64,000 nucleotides of DNA. It comes from a virus. The number at the start of each line of letters is the position of its first letter. Position 1 is the stretch's first letter. The stretch lies in the IMG/VR virus record IMGVR_UViG_3300032516_000004, positions 1 through 64,000 of that record, one strand, 5' to 3'. Below are positions 16,304-60,402 of this stretch, piece by piece. The translations under genes and the position numbers were made by a program. The notes beneath the pieces were generated by a model. The model had not been told where the DNA came from. It ran no database searches and saw only the letters and a list, made by a program, of their open reading frames with translations.

Positions 16304-16391
16304 TGGTGCCTGGGGAGGGGCACGATCCCTCAATCCCTTACGGGCAACAGTTTTTAAGACTGTTCAGTATACCAAATTCCTGCACCCAGGC
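16304..16391 (-). tRNA. tRNA-Leu (anticodon UAA) with encoded CCA
   Basis: The 88-base minus-strand gene has a 7-bp acceptor stem (GCCTGGG with CCCAGGC, then ACCA). The anticodon stem is ACAGT/ACTGT around loop CTTAAAA, giving anticodon UAA. It has a long variable arm with a CCC/GGG stem, as expected for Leu, and a T stem GAGGG/CCCTC. The seven-base T loop reads ATCGTGC instead of the usual TTCGANN, which is unusual. It lies inside a leftward run of protein genes and is probably processed from their transcript. It reads UUA codons. Confidence 0.85.
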
Positions 16392-26103: not shown

Positions 26104-26112
26104 TGGTATTAT
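26104..26112 (+). promoter_or_regulatory. extended -10 element for the tmRNA gene
   Basis: TGGTATTAT lies 14 bases before the tmRNA 5' end, matching the TGn-TATAAT form of an extended -10 box. No convincing -35 is seen. Confidence 0.5.
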
Positions 26113-26125
26113 ACTAAAAGTTTAT

Positions 26126-26492
26126 GGGCCTGAACGGTTTCGACGATGATACGGAGGTGAATGGGAGCGTGCCGGGGATGTCTTGCAGCCTCGTTAAAAA
26201 GCAAGGCAGCGTTTAATTGCCAACTCTGATGTTGAGCAACCTGTTACGCGGCAGCTCGCTGCCGCGTAAGAGGACCCGAGAAGAGACACCTACTATTGAC
26301 TCGGGAAAAGAAGTAGGCTAGGTTATTGTTGGTCCTGGCGCGGCAATAATCGAAACAAACAGACAGGTAATCGTCTGGATCAGCTTGCTCAGTGGGCTGA
26401 GGATTGATGAAAAACGAGTACACGAGATACGCACGTAGTGCCCACCACCAAAAGATTATCGGACCTGGGTTCAATTCCCAGCAGGTCCACCA
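26126..26492 (+). ncRNA. ssrA: tmRNA (ssrA-type) with 16-residue tag
   Basis: The 367-base gene begins GGGCCTG and ends CAGGTCC-ACCA, which pair as a 7-bp acceptor stem (one G-U). The T arm is CTGGG-TTCAATT-CCCAG. The tag frame starts at GCC 26219 and stops at TAA 26267; with the resume codon it reads ANSDVEQPVTRQLAAA, ending in the LAA-type degron recognised by ClpXP. A GCGGCAGC/GCTGCCGC hairpin lies at the end of the tag frame, the usual place of a stem in tmRNA. With host SmpB it would free stalled ribosomes and tag the product. It is followed by two GC-rich hairpins (26510-26570). Confidence 0.93.
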
Positions 26493-26574
26493 TTAGTATT
26501 TGTAAGATTCGGCAGCGGGGTTGAGCCCCGTTGTCGTTGGCACCCAGGGCGGGGGTTAAGCCGCCCACCTTAAA

Positions 26575-27832: not shown

Positions 27833-28513
27833 ATGTTGTATTTACAATTAGACACAGCAAAGAAGCTTGTTCAAACAAAACAAGATGTTCGCGGTACACG
27901 TGTCATGTTGGATGAAACGGACACTGCATTACAACAGAAGTTGTTTGCTACTAGAGCTGAGACTGAAAAATTGTCACCAAAATTTGCGGAATTGAAGTCC
28001 CAACTTGAGTACGAGATGCGTGCTCTTGATGATGAAATTTTGGAGGAATGCACGGCTAACCATAGGACCAATTTGTCCAAAATTCAGTTGATGGAGCGCG
28101 CACTATGCGGCGACATGGAATTGGTTATGGTACCTTCCGCTACTAGCGAGGATATCTCAGCCGCTTTGTTGAATGGAGAAAATACTCCATATGTAATGCC
28201 AATGGAGTTTGCTCTCAAGACCAAAGATGGTTTGAATGTTCACGCCTGGTTCAACGGCGACTCAATAATTACCATTGATGCCACGTTTAATGACGAGGAC
28301 ATCGAGGACCCAACATTCTTACACGGGATTGAAACACCGCGATTCATTAATGGTGTTTGTGCGGGTAGTTGGGTCTGGGATTGGGATGGTGGTGACACAA
28401 AGGTGTATGCCGCTAATGATTTGGCGTCACTCAAAATTCAAGTTGCGGTGGACGACAAATGGTTGACGTTCTCCGTAGCATTCAAACAGCACACGTTTAA
28501 CGTGATTGCCTAG
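27833..28513 (+). CDS. hypothetical protein, 226 aa, paired with the 411-aa gene
   Basis: AAAGGA precedes the ATG. The N-terminal 95 residues are a charged helix (likely coiled coil); the rest is strand-rich and acidic (IITIDATFNDEDIEDPTF). It lies 10 bases upstream of the 411-aa gene, and the pair ends in a strong hairpin, so they form a two-gene unit. Function unknown; a virion role is possible. Confidence 0.65.
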   Translation: MLYLQLDTAKKLVQTKQDVRGTRVMLDETDTALQQKLFATRAETEKLSPKFAELKSQLEYEMRALDDEILEECTANHRTNLSKIQLMERALCGDMELVMVPSATSEDISAALLNGENTPYVMPMEFALKTKDGLNVHAWFNGDSIITIDATFNDEDIEDPTFLHGIETPRFINGVCAGSWVWDWDGGDTKVYAANDLASLKIQVAVDDKWLTFSVAFKQHTFNVIA

Positions 28514-29926: not shown

Positions 29927-30298
29927 ATGAAGGGACCGGTACGTGCGAAATTTCGTTGTTTGGCCATCACGCAAAAATGGGACAAGTCGTGGCAGATTGA
30001 ACTTGGACCCATAATGCAGCGGGGAAAGCAATCGGAAGAGAACAAGCGTTTCTGGGAGTGTTCACCATCAGGAGAGTGTCATCTATTCTTCCACGAGCAA
30101 CATCCATTTGAAGTCGGTACCTACTATTATATTGACATGACGCCCAATGATGAAGGTCTCTGGACGTTGAGTACTGTAACACATCAAGACGGTGGAAGCG
30201 GCGAGGTGTTCTTCAGCCACTATCGAAGTTATGACCATCGGAAACCATTACCTGTAGGACTGCTTAATGGGCACTTCAAAATCGGGGTGGATGGCTAA
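29927..30298 (+). CDS. hypothetical protein, 123 aa, singly transcribed
   Basis: It has its own near-consensus promoter and a strong ribosome site, so it is probably highly expressed. The product is strand-rich (YYYIDMTPNDEGLWTLSTV). No family is recognised. The next 125 bases (30299-30423) hold only a doubtful 29-codon frame overlapping its stop. Confidence 0.65.
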   Translation: MKGPVRAKFRCLAITQKWDKSWQIELGPIMQRGKQSEENKRFWECSPSGECHLFFHEQHPFEVGTYYYIDMTPNDEGLWTLSTVTHQDGGSGEVFFSHYRSYDHRKPLPVGLLNGHFKIGVDG

Positions 30299-48498: not shown

Positions 48499-48819
48499 AT
48501 GAAACTTTGGGTTATTGTAGATCACATTGGACGACAGTTCTTAGGTAAAGTAACTAACGAAAATGATGATATTCTAACTATAGAAGAACCAATATTAATA
48601 ATGGAGATCATTCAACCGCCGAAGGTTGATTTACAAGTGCAGCCAATCTGTCATACATTTGATGTTCCATCTATTGAGGTTCGTTGGGTTTCAAGATTTC
48701 CTGCAAATGAAAAATTAGCCACACTATATGAAAAATTCACAGAGCAGATGCGGGCTAAGCGTGCTGGTATAGAAATCGCCTCAACAATCCCCAAGGGATT
48801 GCAGCTGGTGAGACATTGA
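48499..48819 (+). CDS. hypothetical protein, 106 aa, directly before terL
   Basis: Start at 48499 because AAGGAG precedes it. A strand-rich N-terminus (LWVIVDHIGRQFLGKV) is followed by a helical C-terminus. Its stop overlaps the TTG start of terL. No family is recognised. Confidence 0.65.
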   Translation: MKLWVIVDHIGRQFLGKVTNENDDILTIEEPILIMEIIQPPKVDLQVQPICHTFDVPSIEVRWVSRFPANEKLATLYEKFTEQMRAKRAGIEIASTIPKGLQLVRH

Positions 48820-50849
48820 GCCAAGTGATTGAGACCGATGACTTTATGTCATCCATTCAATCGATTGTTTCGCCATTAACAAGTAAGGTGAGGGCTCAGG
48901 TTTATGATTCTGAATTAGAATATCTTAAGATACCTGCTCCAAATATTATCGAGTTCGTCGCTGAGCCGCAATATCTTAATATACCATCTATTTGGAAGTA
49001 TACACGCCAATATCAGGTGCTTAGAGATTTTTTCCAAGTTAGATGTCCAATTTGTAATTCACAAAAACCAGAAACAATAGACTGTTGGGGTAAAGGCAAG
49101 GAATACCTACAATCAGAAACATTATTAGTATGGTCTATTAAAGACAATGATGATGTTTGTCCAAAGTGTGGCTTGACGCGACATGAATTATTAGAAGATA
49201 AAATAGTAGATAAATATAACCAGCTTCATGGTATTACTGGGATGCGAGCTGGTAAAACTGCTACTATTGCTATGATGGGAGCATATACTGAACACCGACT
49301 AATTACTCTTGGAATGAGTCAACCAGATGGTCGTTTAGCCACATATTTTGGTTTGTTGTCCAAACAACCATATGAGGTTACATATATTGCCTCCACGGAG
49401 GTACAGTCAAATGACACTATATGGGCATATTATCGTAGCATGCGTTTTGATTCTCCTTGGCTTAGACGTTATGTTGAATGGGTTAAAGGCAAGGAAAAAA
49501 CGCAAGATACTCCAATTGGCATGGAAGGATGGAAATATCAGGAAACAAACAAAGAAATTGAAAATGGACATTTGGGAGTAAAATTTAATTCCAAGAACTC
49601 TAACTCCTCTGGTCTCGCGGGTCGTACTCGTATTGGGTCTTTTATTGATGAGCTGTCTCGATTTAAACAGACCGAATCATCAATGAGTGCTGAAGAAGCA
49701 TACCGAGTTATGGAGAATTCACTTAGAACAGTACGATCTGCTGTTATGAATCGTGGTTTATTAAATTGGCTTGGAACAATGGTATCAATTTCATCGCCAA
49801 TGTCGGTTGATGATAAAGGAATGGAGTTATTATATCAATCTACACATATTAAAGGTATGTATGCATTCCACTACGCGACCTGGGATTTTAATCCGGACGA
49901 AAAACGTGAATATTATGACGAAGCATATGAGAAGGATCCAGTAGGCACGGAACGTGACTTTGGAGCTAAGCCACCACTATCTGCTAATCCACTAGTTATT
50001 GATCCCACCAAATTTAAGTCTCGGGCCATTGATGAAACTTTGGTTCCGACCGCTAAGATAGAAATTATTCCGTTTACTGATAAAACCGGGCAACGATATC
50101 ACCGGGCACAGATGACTGAATGTAAGTTGCTTCGTGACGTACCTCGCTATTTGGTATTTGATGCTGGACAAAACTTTGACTCGTTTGCGGGTGCCTGTGG
50201 CCATATTGAAATCAAAGAGCTGCCCGATGGTAATCAAGAATTTATCACGGTAGTAGACTGGGTATTGAAAATTCTTCCATCTAATGATATGGAAGTGTGG
50301 TTTGATTCAGCGGTTGATTTGGTTGACTTTCAAATAAAACATCAGAAGATTGCTGGGGTTGAATTTGATCGCTGGAATAGTGTTACCCTAATACAACAAA
50401 TTCGTAACCTTGGGGTTAGTGCAGAACAGAAATCTATTAAAGTTCCTGACTATGTGAAGTTTGTGGCTGATAGTATAATGGGCCGGGTTCGTATGTTACC
50501 TCCCTTAGAAGAAGATGAGGCTCTAGAACCACCCTTTAAATCACCCTCGGCAACTGCTATTTATGAGTTGACTAAGCTCGAGCGATCGATTGATGACCGA
50601 AAAGTGTATAATGCCGCTAAGGGAAAGCGTAGAGGTTATAATTCGGATGACGTAGCGGTTTGCATGGTACATCTTCATGCAATGGTTCAAGGATCGCAGA
50701 TTTTACCAAGTGGTATAAAAATACGCTCACGTGCAAATCGTCTTAAAAGTGAGACCGTTGGATCTCAAAGTTACCAAATGAATAATATGGGGACAATTTT
50801 TAGCCCGACTCGTTTAGGATTAAAAACTGTTTCCGGGAGAAGATGGTAA
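48816..50849 (+). CDS. terL: large terminase subunit (DNA-packaging ATPase and nuclease)
   Basis: The ATPase half shows a Walker A GMRAGKTA near residue 144 and a Walker B with catalytic Glu GSFIDELSRF near 272. The nuclease half has the three RNase H-like acidic sites: LVFDAGQNFDSFA near 447, GVEFDRWNS near 520 and YNSDDVAV near 610. An N-terminal CPIC..CPKCG zinc pair (about residues 73-115) is a less common extra. The protein would drive DNA into proheads through the portal and cut it. Start taken as TTG overlapping the upstream stop; GTG at 48825 and ATG at 48846 are alternatives. Confidence 0.9.
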   Translation: MSQVIETDDFMSSIQSIVSPLTSKVRAQVYDSELEYLKIPAPNIIEFVAEPQYLNIPSIWKYTRQYQVLRDFFQVRCPICNSQKPETIDCWGKGKEYLQSETLLVWSIKDNDDVCPKCGLTRHELLEDKIVDKYNQLHGITGMRAGKTATIAMMGAYTEHRLITLGMSQPDGRLATYFGLLSKQPYEVTYIASTEVQSNDTIWAYYRSMRFDSPWLRRYVEWVKGKEKTQDTPIGMEGWKYQETNKEIENGHLGVKFNSKNSNSSGLAGRTRIGSFIDELSRFKQTESSMSAEEAYRVMENSLRTVRSAVMNRGLLNWLGTMVSISSPMSVDDKGMELLYQSTHIKGMYAFHYATWDFNPDEKREYYDEAYEKDPVGTERDFGAKPPLSANPLVIDPTKFKSRAIDETLVPTAKIEIIPFTDKTGQRYHRAQMTECKLLRDVPRYLVFDAGQNFDSFAGACGHIEIKELPDGNQEFITVVDWVLKILPSNDMEVWFDSAVDLVDFQIKHQKIAGVEFDRWNSVTLIQQIRNLGVSAEQKSIKVPDYVKFVADSIMGRVRMLPPLEEDEALEPPFKSPSATAIYELTKLERSIDDRKVYNAAKGKRRGYNSDDVAVCMVHLHAMVQGSQILPSGIKIRSRANRLKSETVGSQSYQMNNMGTIFSPTRLGLKTVSGRRW

Positions 50850-56919: not shown

Positions 56920-59900
56920 ATGACAAGTTTAATCCGGGGTAGTATGTATGGGGATCCTAGAGTCCAGGCATCTCGCGAACTACCCCATGGTATGACTCCT
57001 GATTCTATCGAACAACTAGCCTCGAGATTCGAAAATTTCGTGCCCGGTATTTCCAGCTCACAAGGCACAGCATCAAAACAATTCTTTGAAGGTTTGCTGC
57101 CTGAGGGCGCAGAACTGTCACCCAGAACACATCGGCAGGCACAATTCAATATACCGGGTGGCGGCGCATTGAGTAACTTTATTGGTGGAGGGGTTGGGGG
57201 TGGTGGTGGTACCATGGTGACCCCACAACAACCCTACCAGCCAGAGTTCAGCGATCCCTCGAGACAAGCCTATCCCATCCATCGAATTTTGGCTAATCGT
57301 TACTGGCGTTTATTCTATAAGTTAGATCCAACTATTGGCAATTGTGTCGATCTCATGGCCACAATGCCATGGTCAGATTGCCAATTAACAGGTGAAGGGG
57401 TTACCGGTGAAATTAAAGAAGCCTACGAGGAAATGTGGAAAGAGTGTGAGATACTAAAAATTCTTGAATATATGGTTAAGGAATTCTTAGTGGTCGGTGA
57501 AGTGTGTAACCATTGCTTCTTCGATGATTCAAAGGGCATCTGGACCTATGTGGCGCTTCATAATCCTGATCAGCTAGAAGTAATCGATGCCCCATTCATA
57601 AAAATGCAACCGGTAATCGAGTTTATTCCTGACGATCGATTACGAGCAGTTCTTACCTCCAATAATCATCTGTTGCGTCGTATTAGAGAGCAAATGCCTG
57701 CCGAGCTGATCGCTCGTCTAATTGCACGACAAAATATACCGCTTAGCCCTATTAATGCTACTTTTATTCCTCGTCGTTTACATCCCTATGATACTCGTGG
57801 CACCAGCATTATCAGTAGAATGTGGCGGATACTGATGTATGAGGATAGCCAACCACCTGGAACCCCAATTACCAGACCAGATGGCACAAATACACCAATT
57901 GAACAAATATCTATTAATGATCTAATTGTTGGTAAAAACGGTGACATACAAAAAATAACTCATATCTCTGAAAAATACTCAGAAGAACTTATGGAAATTA
58001 AAATTCATGGTGGTTGGACAATTAACTGTACCAAGAGCCATAAATGGCCAATATTCAAAAAGGATAGCTATCGTAGTGGTTCTATAAAAACGCTTGCTTC
58101 AAATATACAGATTGGTGACTATTTATCAATACCTCGACAATTTGTTAAATCTAAGTTAGATAAAAATTCTACTAGTTCCATGGCCAGATTATTGGGTTAT
58201 TATGTGGCCGAGGGATCTAGAACTAATATATCTAGTCAATATAAAGGAAAGACCTATAAATATCACCATGGATTATCCTGGGCTCTATCATTAGATGAAA
58301 AGAACACCTTAGCTAAAGATATTCTTGAAATATGCACTAAAATAAATTGTAGTCCAAAATTTTATGTTGGGAAGTCAAATTTAAGTAGAAATGGCTGTGC
58401 AATACACACTCACAAAAAAGCAGACATCTGGTTAGCTGATTGGATGTTTAGTAATGGAGGTGAACACGCGGCTACAAAACAGCTCTCTCAAATGGTAATG
58501 GGGTGGCCTCTAAAACTTAAACAAGAATTTATTCGTGGTTATTTTAGAGGCGATGGATCATATAATCTATTGTGTAAGCCTAAAACAAAAATAACACAAA
58601 GACGTACAGTTCAAAGCACTGTAAAAGCAGCAACCGTATCATCTGCTCTGGCGTATCAAATACAACTAATCCTTGCCCAATTGGGAATTTTTGCTAAGAT
58701 TAGGGTCTATCAACCACCCAACAATGATGGAAGAAATAGACGAAAAATTAATTATATAGAATGTACTGGTCGTCATGGTGATAAGCTAGCGTCGGTTGTT
58801 TGGGGTAAAGTTAGAGAACGATCTGTTATGGATCACAGATCGCAATCACGTGTTGTTGTAACTAAGACACACATATTGTTACCAATCACCAAGGTGGCCA
58901 TCGAAAAATATGATGGATTAGTCTATAGTCTTGAAACATCTGGTGATCACTCATATTTAAATGCAAATGTCGCAACATATAATTCGATTTATAATGCATC
59001 TATTCAAACGGCTAGAAGACAGAGTAGTCCCTTGAAGATCGCTAAACTAGGAAATCCGCAAACAGGCTGGATTCCCAGCCCTGAACATGAACAACGTCTA
59101 CTACGTTTGTTAGCTCAGGCTGAAATGGATCCTGCGGCATGGATCACGTACCATTACGGGATCCAATTTGAGTTGGTTGGTGTTCAAGAACGAGTAATGA
59201 ACATCAGCCAACACAATGAAGTGATTGAACGGATTAAGTTAGTTGCACTCGGAATTAGTAAAGCGTTCCTATCGGGCGAGGTCACGTATAGCTCGGCCTA
59301 CACGGGTCTTTCAGTTTTCTTGCAACGCATGAAGGCGATGCGTAATTTCTTTGTTAATAGTTGGGTGATCCCCAAGTTCTTTACTCCAATTGCGAAGATG
59401 AACGGTTGGGTGAAGAGTGACAAGGGTGAACTGAACCATCGGTACCGAATTAAGAGATCCCAGCGAGAGATTGAACAACAAAATCGGTACATAATCCCAC
59501 ATATTGAATGGGAAAAACAACTTGACCAGACCATTAATAGTGATTTGGTAAATGCCATGACCTCACTCGAGGGTCTAGGGATCAAGTTCTCCAAGACCAC
59601 CAAGTATGCGGCGGTGAATAAGAAGTTTGAGGAAGAGGTTCGGAAGATCAAGGAAGAGCAAAAATTCGAAATGGAGCTAGCCCCATATATTGCGCCTAGT
59701 CAAGTGGCGGGTGGACCTGGTGCACCCGGTGGTGCTCCACCAATGCCTACTGGAGGAGGGCCACCGGCCCCAATGGGTGGTGAGCCTGAACCAGGCGCTG
59801 GGGCATTACCTCCAGGAGCCATGGGTCCAGGTGCTGAAGCGTCGTCTGATAAAGCGGGGGCAGGTGGTGGTACGGGTCCTTCAGGTAAGAAGGATCCAGC

Positions 59901-60402
59901 AGTTCGTGATATGGAATCCAGTATCTGGGATCGTAAAGGTAGGTCCGGGAATTGGTCGGCGTCAGAAATTCATGAGCTTGATCAGTTGATCCGCGAGGGA
60001 CATACTGACTCACCATTGTGGGGTGATATGGATGGTCCAGCATTTAGAAAGGCTGTGAATTCCCAGGACGCTTGGCAAGTCCTTGAGGTTATTGAAGATC
60101 ACTTGACTGACCATGGATATCCGGCAGATGACATCCGACAACTACGTAGAATTCTCGATGAAGAGGGGGTTCTAAAGGACATATCGACTGGTGATGTAGA
60201 AGTATTAAAGTCTGTTGAACGGAAAATGGATGATAGTGGTACATTAAACGATCAAGATGCCATGGAACGACTATCAGCACAAATAGATGGTGAAAAGACT
60301 GGCACAGTAGAAATGGGAAATCCAGAGTTACTCTACGTTGGTCATGGAAATCAAGATATTGGGTCCTGGAGCGGGGATATTAGTGATAAGATTCCTAGAT
60401 AA
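56920..60402 (+). CDS. portal protein interrupted by an intein
   Basis: The 1160-residue product contains a 379-residue intein (residues 310-688); the spliced portal would be 781 aa. The extein has the portal pattern: a core beginning near RILANRYWRLFYKLDPTIGN, the FIPRRLHPYDTRGTS..RMWRILMYED-SIYNASIQTARRQ junction, and a helical C-terminal core. This is followed by a P/G-rich linker and a charged helical tail of about 180 residues. Portals form the dodecameric ring through which terminase packs DNA. The intein sits in a conserved part, as inteins usually do, so splicing is needed for function. Confidence 0.8.
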   Translation: MTSLIRGSMYGDPRVQASRELPHGMTPDSIEQLASRFENFVPGISSSQGTASKQFFEGLLPEGAELSPRTHRQAQFNIPGGGALSNFIGGGVGGGGGTMVTPQQPYQPEFSDPSRQAYPIHRILANRYWRLFYKLDPTIGNCVDLMATMPWSDCQLTGEGVTGEIKEAYEEMWKECEILKILEYMVKEFLVVGEVCNHCFFDDSKGIWTYVALHNPDQLEVIDAPFIKMQPVIEFIPDDRLRAVLTSNNHLLRRIREQMPAELIARLIARQNIPLSPINATFIPRRLHPYDTRGTSIISRMWRILMYEDSQPPGTPITRPDGTNTPIEQISINDLIVGKNGDIQKITHISEKYSEELMEIKIHGGWTINCTKSHKWPIFKKDSYRSGSIKTLASNIQIGDYLSIPRQFVKSKLDKNSTSSMARLLGYYVAEGSRTNISSQYKGKTYKYHHGLSWALSLDEKNTLAKDILEICTKINCSPKFYVGKSNLSRNGCAIHTHKKADIWLADWMFSNGGEHAATKQLSQMVMGWPLKLKQEFIRGYFRGDGSYNLLCKPKTKITQRRTVQSTVKAATVSSALAYQIQLILAQLGIFAKIRVYQPPNNDGRNRRKINYIECTGRHGDKLASVVWGKVRERSVMDHRSQSRVVVTKTHILLPITKVAIEKYDGLVYSLETSGDHSYLNANVATYNSIYNASIQTARRQSSPLKIAKLGNPQTGWIPSPEHEQRLLRLLAQAEMDPAAWITYHYGIQFELVGVQERVMNISQHNEVIERIKLVALGISKAFLSGEVTYSSAYTGLSVFLQRMKAMRNFFVNSWVIPKFFTPIAKMNGWVKSDKGELNHRYRIKRSQREIEQQNRYIIPHIEWEKQLDQTINSDLVNAMTSLEGLGIKFSKTTKYAAVNKKFEEEVRKIKEEQKFEMELAPYIAPSQVAGGPGAPGGAPPMPTGGGPPAPMGGEPEPGAGALPPGAMGPGAEASSDKAGAGGGTGPSGKKDPAVRDMESSIWDRKGRSGNWSASEIHELDQLIREGHTDSPLWGDMDGPAFRKAVNSQDAWQVLEVIEDHLTDHGYPADDIRQLRRILDEEGVLKDISTGDVEVLKSVERKMDDSGTLNDQDAMERLSAQIDGEKTGTVEMGNPELLYVGHGNQDIGSWSGDISDKIPR
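57847..58983 (+). mobile_element. intein with LAGLIDADG homing endonuclease, in the portal gene
   Basis: The element begins with Ser (AGC at 57847) in SQPPGTPI and ends with YN before a +1 Ser. Splice blocks: A around the N-terminal Ser, B as NCTKSHKW (TxxH), F as VYSLETSGDHSYL and G as NVATYN-S. Two dodecapeptide motifs, LLGYYVAEGS and IRGYFRGDGS, mark a LAGLIDADG endonuclease between blocks B and F. The N-terminal Ser and the Tyr-Asn end (instead of His-Asn) are less usual. The frame is intact, so it is probably active. Confidence 0.9.

Follow-up and report, generated by a model that had tools for sequence, protein, structure and literature searches.

The locus considered here raises the question of why a large bacterial virus should carry a tmRNA gene, and whether the RNA it specifies is equipped for trans-translation. 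Within the window (the whole stretch of DNA that was analyzed, 64,000 nucleotides in length), ARAGORN located a one-piece, i.e. non-permuted, tmRNA with the tag ANSDVEQPVTRQLAAA* exactly at positions 26126-26492 (+). The Rfam model RF00023 matched the same coordinates, 26126-26492, over its full length (model positions 1-374) with 144.7 bits (E 9.4e-57), 97 bits above its gathering score of 47. This was the sole Rfam match within the 64-kb window and the only tmRNA in the whole 177,941-base record. The parts of the gene and its immediate surroundings are as follows.

26104-26112 (+): possible extended −10 promoter, TGG-TATTAT, just upstream of the tmRNA (recognized by eye)
26126-26492 (+): complete one-piece tmRNA (ssrA), 367 nt, CCA encoded (ARAGORN, RF00023)
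26126-26132 (+): 5′ strand of the acceptor stem, GGGCCUG, with G3 at 26128; 7/7 pairs with 26482-26488
26139-26144 (+): D-loop analogue, UUCGAC, conserved (Rfam alignment)
26173-26207 (+): PK1, helices 26173-26177/26189-26193 and 26180-26186/26201-26207; 5/5 and 7/7 pairs
26219-26269 (+): tag reading frame ANSDVEQPVTRQLAAA*, from the GCC resume codon to TAA (ARAGORN coding part 94-144)
26240-26273 (+): helix 5, loop CUCG, with the tag stop (26267-26269) in its 3′ arm; 14/15 pairs
26275-26317 (+): PK2, helices 26275-26280/26300-26305 and 26289-26294/26312-26317; 6/6 and 6/6 pairs
26321-26367 (+): PK3, helices 26321-26330/26342-26351 and 26334-26337/26364-26367; 10/10 and 4/4 pairs
26366-26408 (+): PK4 region, helices alone, 26366-26372/26402-26408 and 26381-26384/26396-26399; 6/7 and 4/4 pairs
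26465-26481 (+): T arm, 5-bp stem (5/5 pairs), TTCAATT loop
26482-26488 (+): 3′ strand of the acceptor stem, CAGGUCC, with the U70 equivalent at 26486; forms the G3.U70 alanine determinant
26508-26568 (+): two GC-rich hairpins downstream of the tmRNA, terminator-like but without a T run (fold)

An earlier, sequence-only reading had proposed a complete single-piece tmRNA at this site, and ARAGORN, the full-length RF00023 match and the paired helices all bear it out. A poor covariance-model score and the lack of the G-U pair used for alanine charging had been named as the two findings that would speak against it. The former is excluded by the 144.7 bits obtained, and the latter by the acceptor stem, in which all seven pairs form, G3.U70 is present and A73 is followed by CCA (ACCA); the G3.U70 pair occurs in 149/149 of the one-piece tmRNAs compared. 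The minimum-energy fold of the RNA was more stable than those of 99/100 dinucleotide shuffles (z = −3.4). The tag frame (51 nt) starts with an alanine resume codon, is closed by a stop and ends in Ala-Ala. It is preceded by UUAAUU, which places A at −4 and U at −5; conservation of these two positions in our bacterial tmRNA sample is by construction, since the search pattern fixes GGTTTCGACG and TAATTGCCAAC. The matches to a promoter and a terminator around the gene were weak, and a consensus scan picked up neither the TGG-TATTAT motif nor the downstream hairpins.

Since the elements on which charging, resumption and termination depend are all intact, the simplest reading is full trans-translation with host factors. 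We therefore propose, with a probability of roughly 0.78, that the phage gene specifies a standard tmRNA which is made during infection and is functional. From the gene and its predicted structure we infer expression, charging, tagging, degradation of the products and a benefit to the phage, as follows. Host AlaRS would charge the RNA through G3.U70, after which host SmpB and EF-Tu would bring it to ribosomes arrested on broken mRNA. Such a ribosome would then move to the GCC resume codon, append ANSDVEQPVTRQLAAA and terminate at the UAA within helix 5, and the tagged fragment would pass to host proteases recognizing a C-terminal Ala-Ala. This scheme assumes compatibility of the phage tmRNA with SmpB, AlaRS and ClpXP of the host. 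The likely benefit would be that ribosomes are kept free during the decay of host transcripts, in agreement with the support of translation that is commonly suggested as the function of tRNA arrays in related phages. We also count in favor of tmRNA function the presence, in the same genome, of a trigger-factor-like protein, i.e. of another ribosome-associated function.

The record is a 177.9 kb phage genome of a large uncultured bacterial virus, the two ends of which share an overlap of 136 bases (one mismatch); it is therefore probably complete. The genes to which we refer are located as follows.

16304-16391: tRNA-Leu(taa), the sole tRNA found
48816-50849: terminase
56920-60402: portal
record 115835-117097: capsid gene

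Pfam searches of the record also revealed a ribonucleotide reductase, a DNA polymerase III alpha subunit with an intein, a primase-helicase, RecA and an NAD-dependent ligase. That the record holds genes for terminase, portal and capsid and has overlapping ends confirms that the tmRNA is phage-encoded, and its position is, as had been suggested, in the accessory region of the phage genome. Neither SmpB nor a tyrosine integrase (PF00589) was found when looked for in the phage genome, and no serine integrase was among the results of partial Pfam scans. As no SmpB was found, the tmRNA must rely on SmpB, AlaRS and proteases of the host.

The trigger-factor-like protein (411 aa) is encoded at record 165618-166853 (L007:1618-2853, +). 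It contains the motif GFRPGKIP, typical of the ribosome-binding loop, and it matches Pfam Trigger_N (1.3e-8) and TIGR00115 (90.7 bits, below the cut-off of 180); a homologue in the related genome G013 is 38% identical. The phage genome also encodes a PurA/PurZ-like adenylosuccinate synthetase (PHROG: 2-aminooxy adenylosuccinate synthetase; record 129324-130733), an adenylosuccinate lyase (record 173374-174630) and two Mom-family proteins, for which a role in DNA base modification is possible.

The dependence on host factors bears on a different role for the RNA, namely that of a decoy: by tying up SmpB, AlaRS or ribosomes of the host, it would impair host trans-translation or the stress signalling that stalled ribosomes set off. 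In a phage with no detected SmpB, the tmRNA would draw on the host pool, and there is a precedent in mycobacteriophage DS6A, whose tmRNA likewise provides a phage-encoded tRNA-like domain: this form lacks the tag frame and, when expressed, inhibits the tmRNA of E. coli (PMC11915505). In contrast, the RNA described here has the whole mRNA-like part, including the 51-nt tag frame that DS6A-type forms lack, and its resume-codon context and the helices that serve tagging only are intact, unlike those of 81-nt tag-less forms. The sequence-only reading had raised both support of translation and competition with the host's tmRNA; the intact frame and helices favor full trans-translation and make a decoy function unlikely.

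Such tag-less forms were encountered in five Streptomyces phages (pSt2308, LuckySocke, GiJojo, Alone3 and BRock), in which a tmRNA tRNA-like domain of about 81 nt, without the tag part, is conserved and adjoins tRNA genes (L012:952-1034, L314:556-638, L315:556-638, L317:389-471 and L318:395-477). This domain scored above the RF00023 cut-off in 4/5 of the phages and is not annotated as tmRNA; it resembles the DS6A form that is reported to inhibit E. coli tmRNA (PMC11915505).

Searches with the terminase and capsid sequences identified, as relatives of the phage, Virus Rctr197k (KX853510; terminase 46% and capsid 73% identical) and several IMG/VR contigs. Related genomes with a TerL 69-72% identical contain no tmRNA, and some of them carry tRNA arrays; in none of the relatives examined, several of which are fragments, was a tmRNA detected above the Rfam cut-off. 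Virus Rctr197k has 41 tRNAs (PMC5099504). G013 (166 kb; capsid 84% identical) has one tRNA on its own and 25 in an array at 90.4-93.8 kb, 26 in all, and this array is flanked by homologues of the window genes 27833-28513 and 29927-30298. The tmRNA thus lies approx. 1.3 kb from a site that holds tRNAs in a relative. Judged from this comparison, the tmRNA is probably a lineage-specific gain beside an RNA-gene hotspot; its loss by the relatives is the less likely alternative.

The absence of a tmRNA from the nearest related genomes would also fit a host gene acquired by integration or chance capture and of no further use, and on many viral contigs the tmRNAs do resemble host attachment sites. An attachment-site remnant was nevertheless rejected in the present case, because the genome in which the gene resides is that of a phage, has overlapping ends and showed no tyrosine integrase. 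Moreover, every tested part of the gene is intact, and the best identity to bacterial tmRNAs, among the matches listed, is only about 62%, so that no donor or host can be named. A useless passenger is thus most improbable.

The exact 5′-end and 3′-end patterns of the tmRNA had no match in viral contigs, and the 3′-end pattern had none in 85,000 prokaryote genomes. When the whole tmRNA was used in blastn, no match was obtained in plasmids, and that in phages was limited to 31 bases of the 3′-end, in three Streptomyces phages. Nothing significant was found by blastn in six whole bacterial genomes, a method too insensitive for phylum-wide comparison.

The sequence-only reading had further described the tag as longer and more polar than many bacterial tags and had suggested altered delivery to ClpXP or adaptors. 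The statement on length holds against the 70 bacterial tags sampled among the matches listed (16 aa vs 9 to 15 aa), although longer tags, of 20 and 22 aa, exist in other phages. As for delivery, ribosomes might be freed while degradation of the tagged products is slow or takes a different route (another adaptor, another protease), so that phage or host proteins are spared. Beyond its opening AN, the tag has little in common with the sampled bacterial tags, and it lacks a site like AANDENY, the SspB site known from E. coli. However, the terminal Ala-Ala is kept, as it mostly is in the otherwise varied tags on other large viral contigs, and AAA ends are found in Magnetococcales tags. The polar stretch also has a structural explanation. 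The loop and 3′ arm of helix 5 spell L-A-A-A-stop, and the 5′ strand that pairs with these codons reads V-T-R-Q in the tag frame; the polar residues may therefore be a by-product of helix 5 pairing rather than a selected signal, as judged from one sequence. Nothing shows altered delivery, and we consider it very unlikely. A tag stop in the 3′ arm of helix 5 was also seen in 8/70 bacterial cases among the matches listed, according to a rough hairpin search rather than a curated alignment. The case of helix 5 calls for caution when function is read into odd tag residues, as pairing can dictate them.

Compared with the standard one-piece tmRNA (RF00023), the molecule agrees in length, G3.U70 acceptor stem, D-loop, T arm, tag frame, encoded CCA, PK1-PK3 and the PK4 helix; it differs in its sequence (identity to the bacterial tmRNAs listed no higher than about 62%), its 16-aa tag and the position of the stop in the 3′ arm of helix 5, not in the loop. 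The rarity of phage tmRNAs, also claimed earlier, is confirmed by a published census, in which they were present in 402/18,146 phage genomes (PMC9004378). As about 2% of phage genomes are thus known to carry one, the gene is an ordinary further example and not a new system. Complete tmRNAs are likewise carried by C1/V mycobacteriophages and huge phages (PMC3029335, PMC10586154, PMC7162821), C1 phages being described in PMC3029335 and huge phages, with SmpB in addition, in PMC7162821. Those tmRNAs are usually accompanied by tRNAs, whereas the present phage has one tRNA and no SmpB that we could find; the tag of mycobacteriophage EniyanLRS (AVDTDVDFAMWEAELASDLVAA) is unrelated. Methylophilales phage Melnitz and its relatives also encode a tmRNA, proposed to maintain the host translation machinery or to recycle amino acids, but theirs is two-piece, permuted and associated with a glutamine riboswitch (PMC9004378); the RNA described here is one-piece, and Rfam revealed no riboswitch in the window. 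With this gene, a family whose relatives have tRNA arrays instead gains a phage tmRNA that is structurally intact and probably lineage-specific, which supports the view of tmRNA as one piece of a phage translation-support kit.

The most similar viral tmRNA (63%) is encoded by L030, a 179 kb contig. L030 was rejected as a relative: it belongs to an unrelated phage that has no more in common with the present one than a distant ribonucleotide reductase and three weak local matches. In a rough tree the tmRNA grouped with those of other viral contigs, with weak support (0.54 at the nearest node, 0.07 and 0.86 deeper) and a biased bacterial sample. A separate tmRNA lineage common to large phages and distinct from that of bacteria, with tags reshaped so that rescued products evade the usual host adaptor, is unlikely.

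Two further groups of viral tmRNAs were noted. Four viral contigs (L022, L023, L026 and L028) carry permuted tmRNAs near tRNA-Ile(tat), with the short tag ANRLAMAA or ANRMAMAA, and these are perhaps akin to the two-piece tmRNAs of Melnitz-like phages. Seven others (L150, L151, L152, L167, L182, L188 and L227) carry one-piece tmRNAs with ANDN-type tags, which recall alphaproteobacterial tags, yet alphaproteobacterial tmRNAs are usually two-piece.
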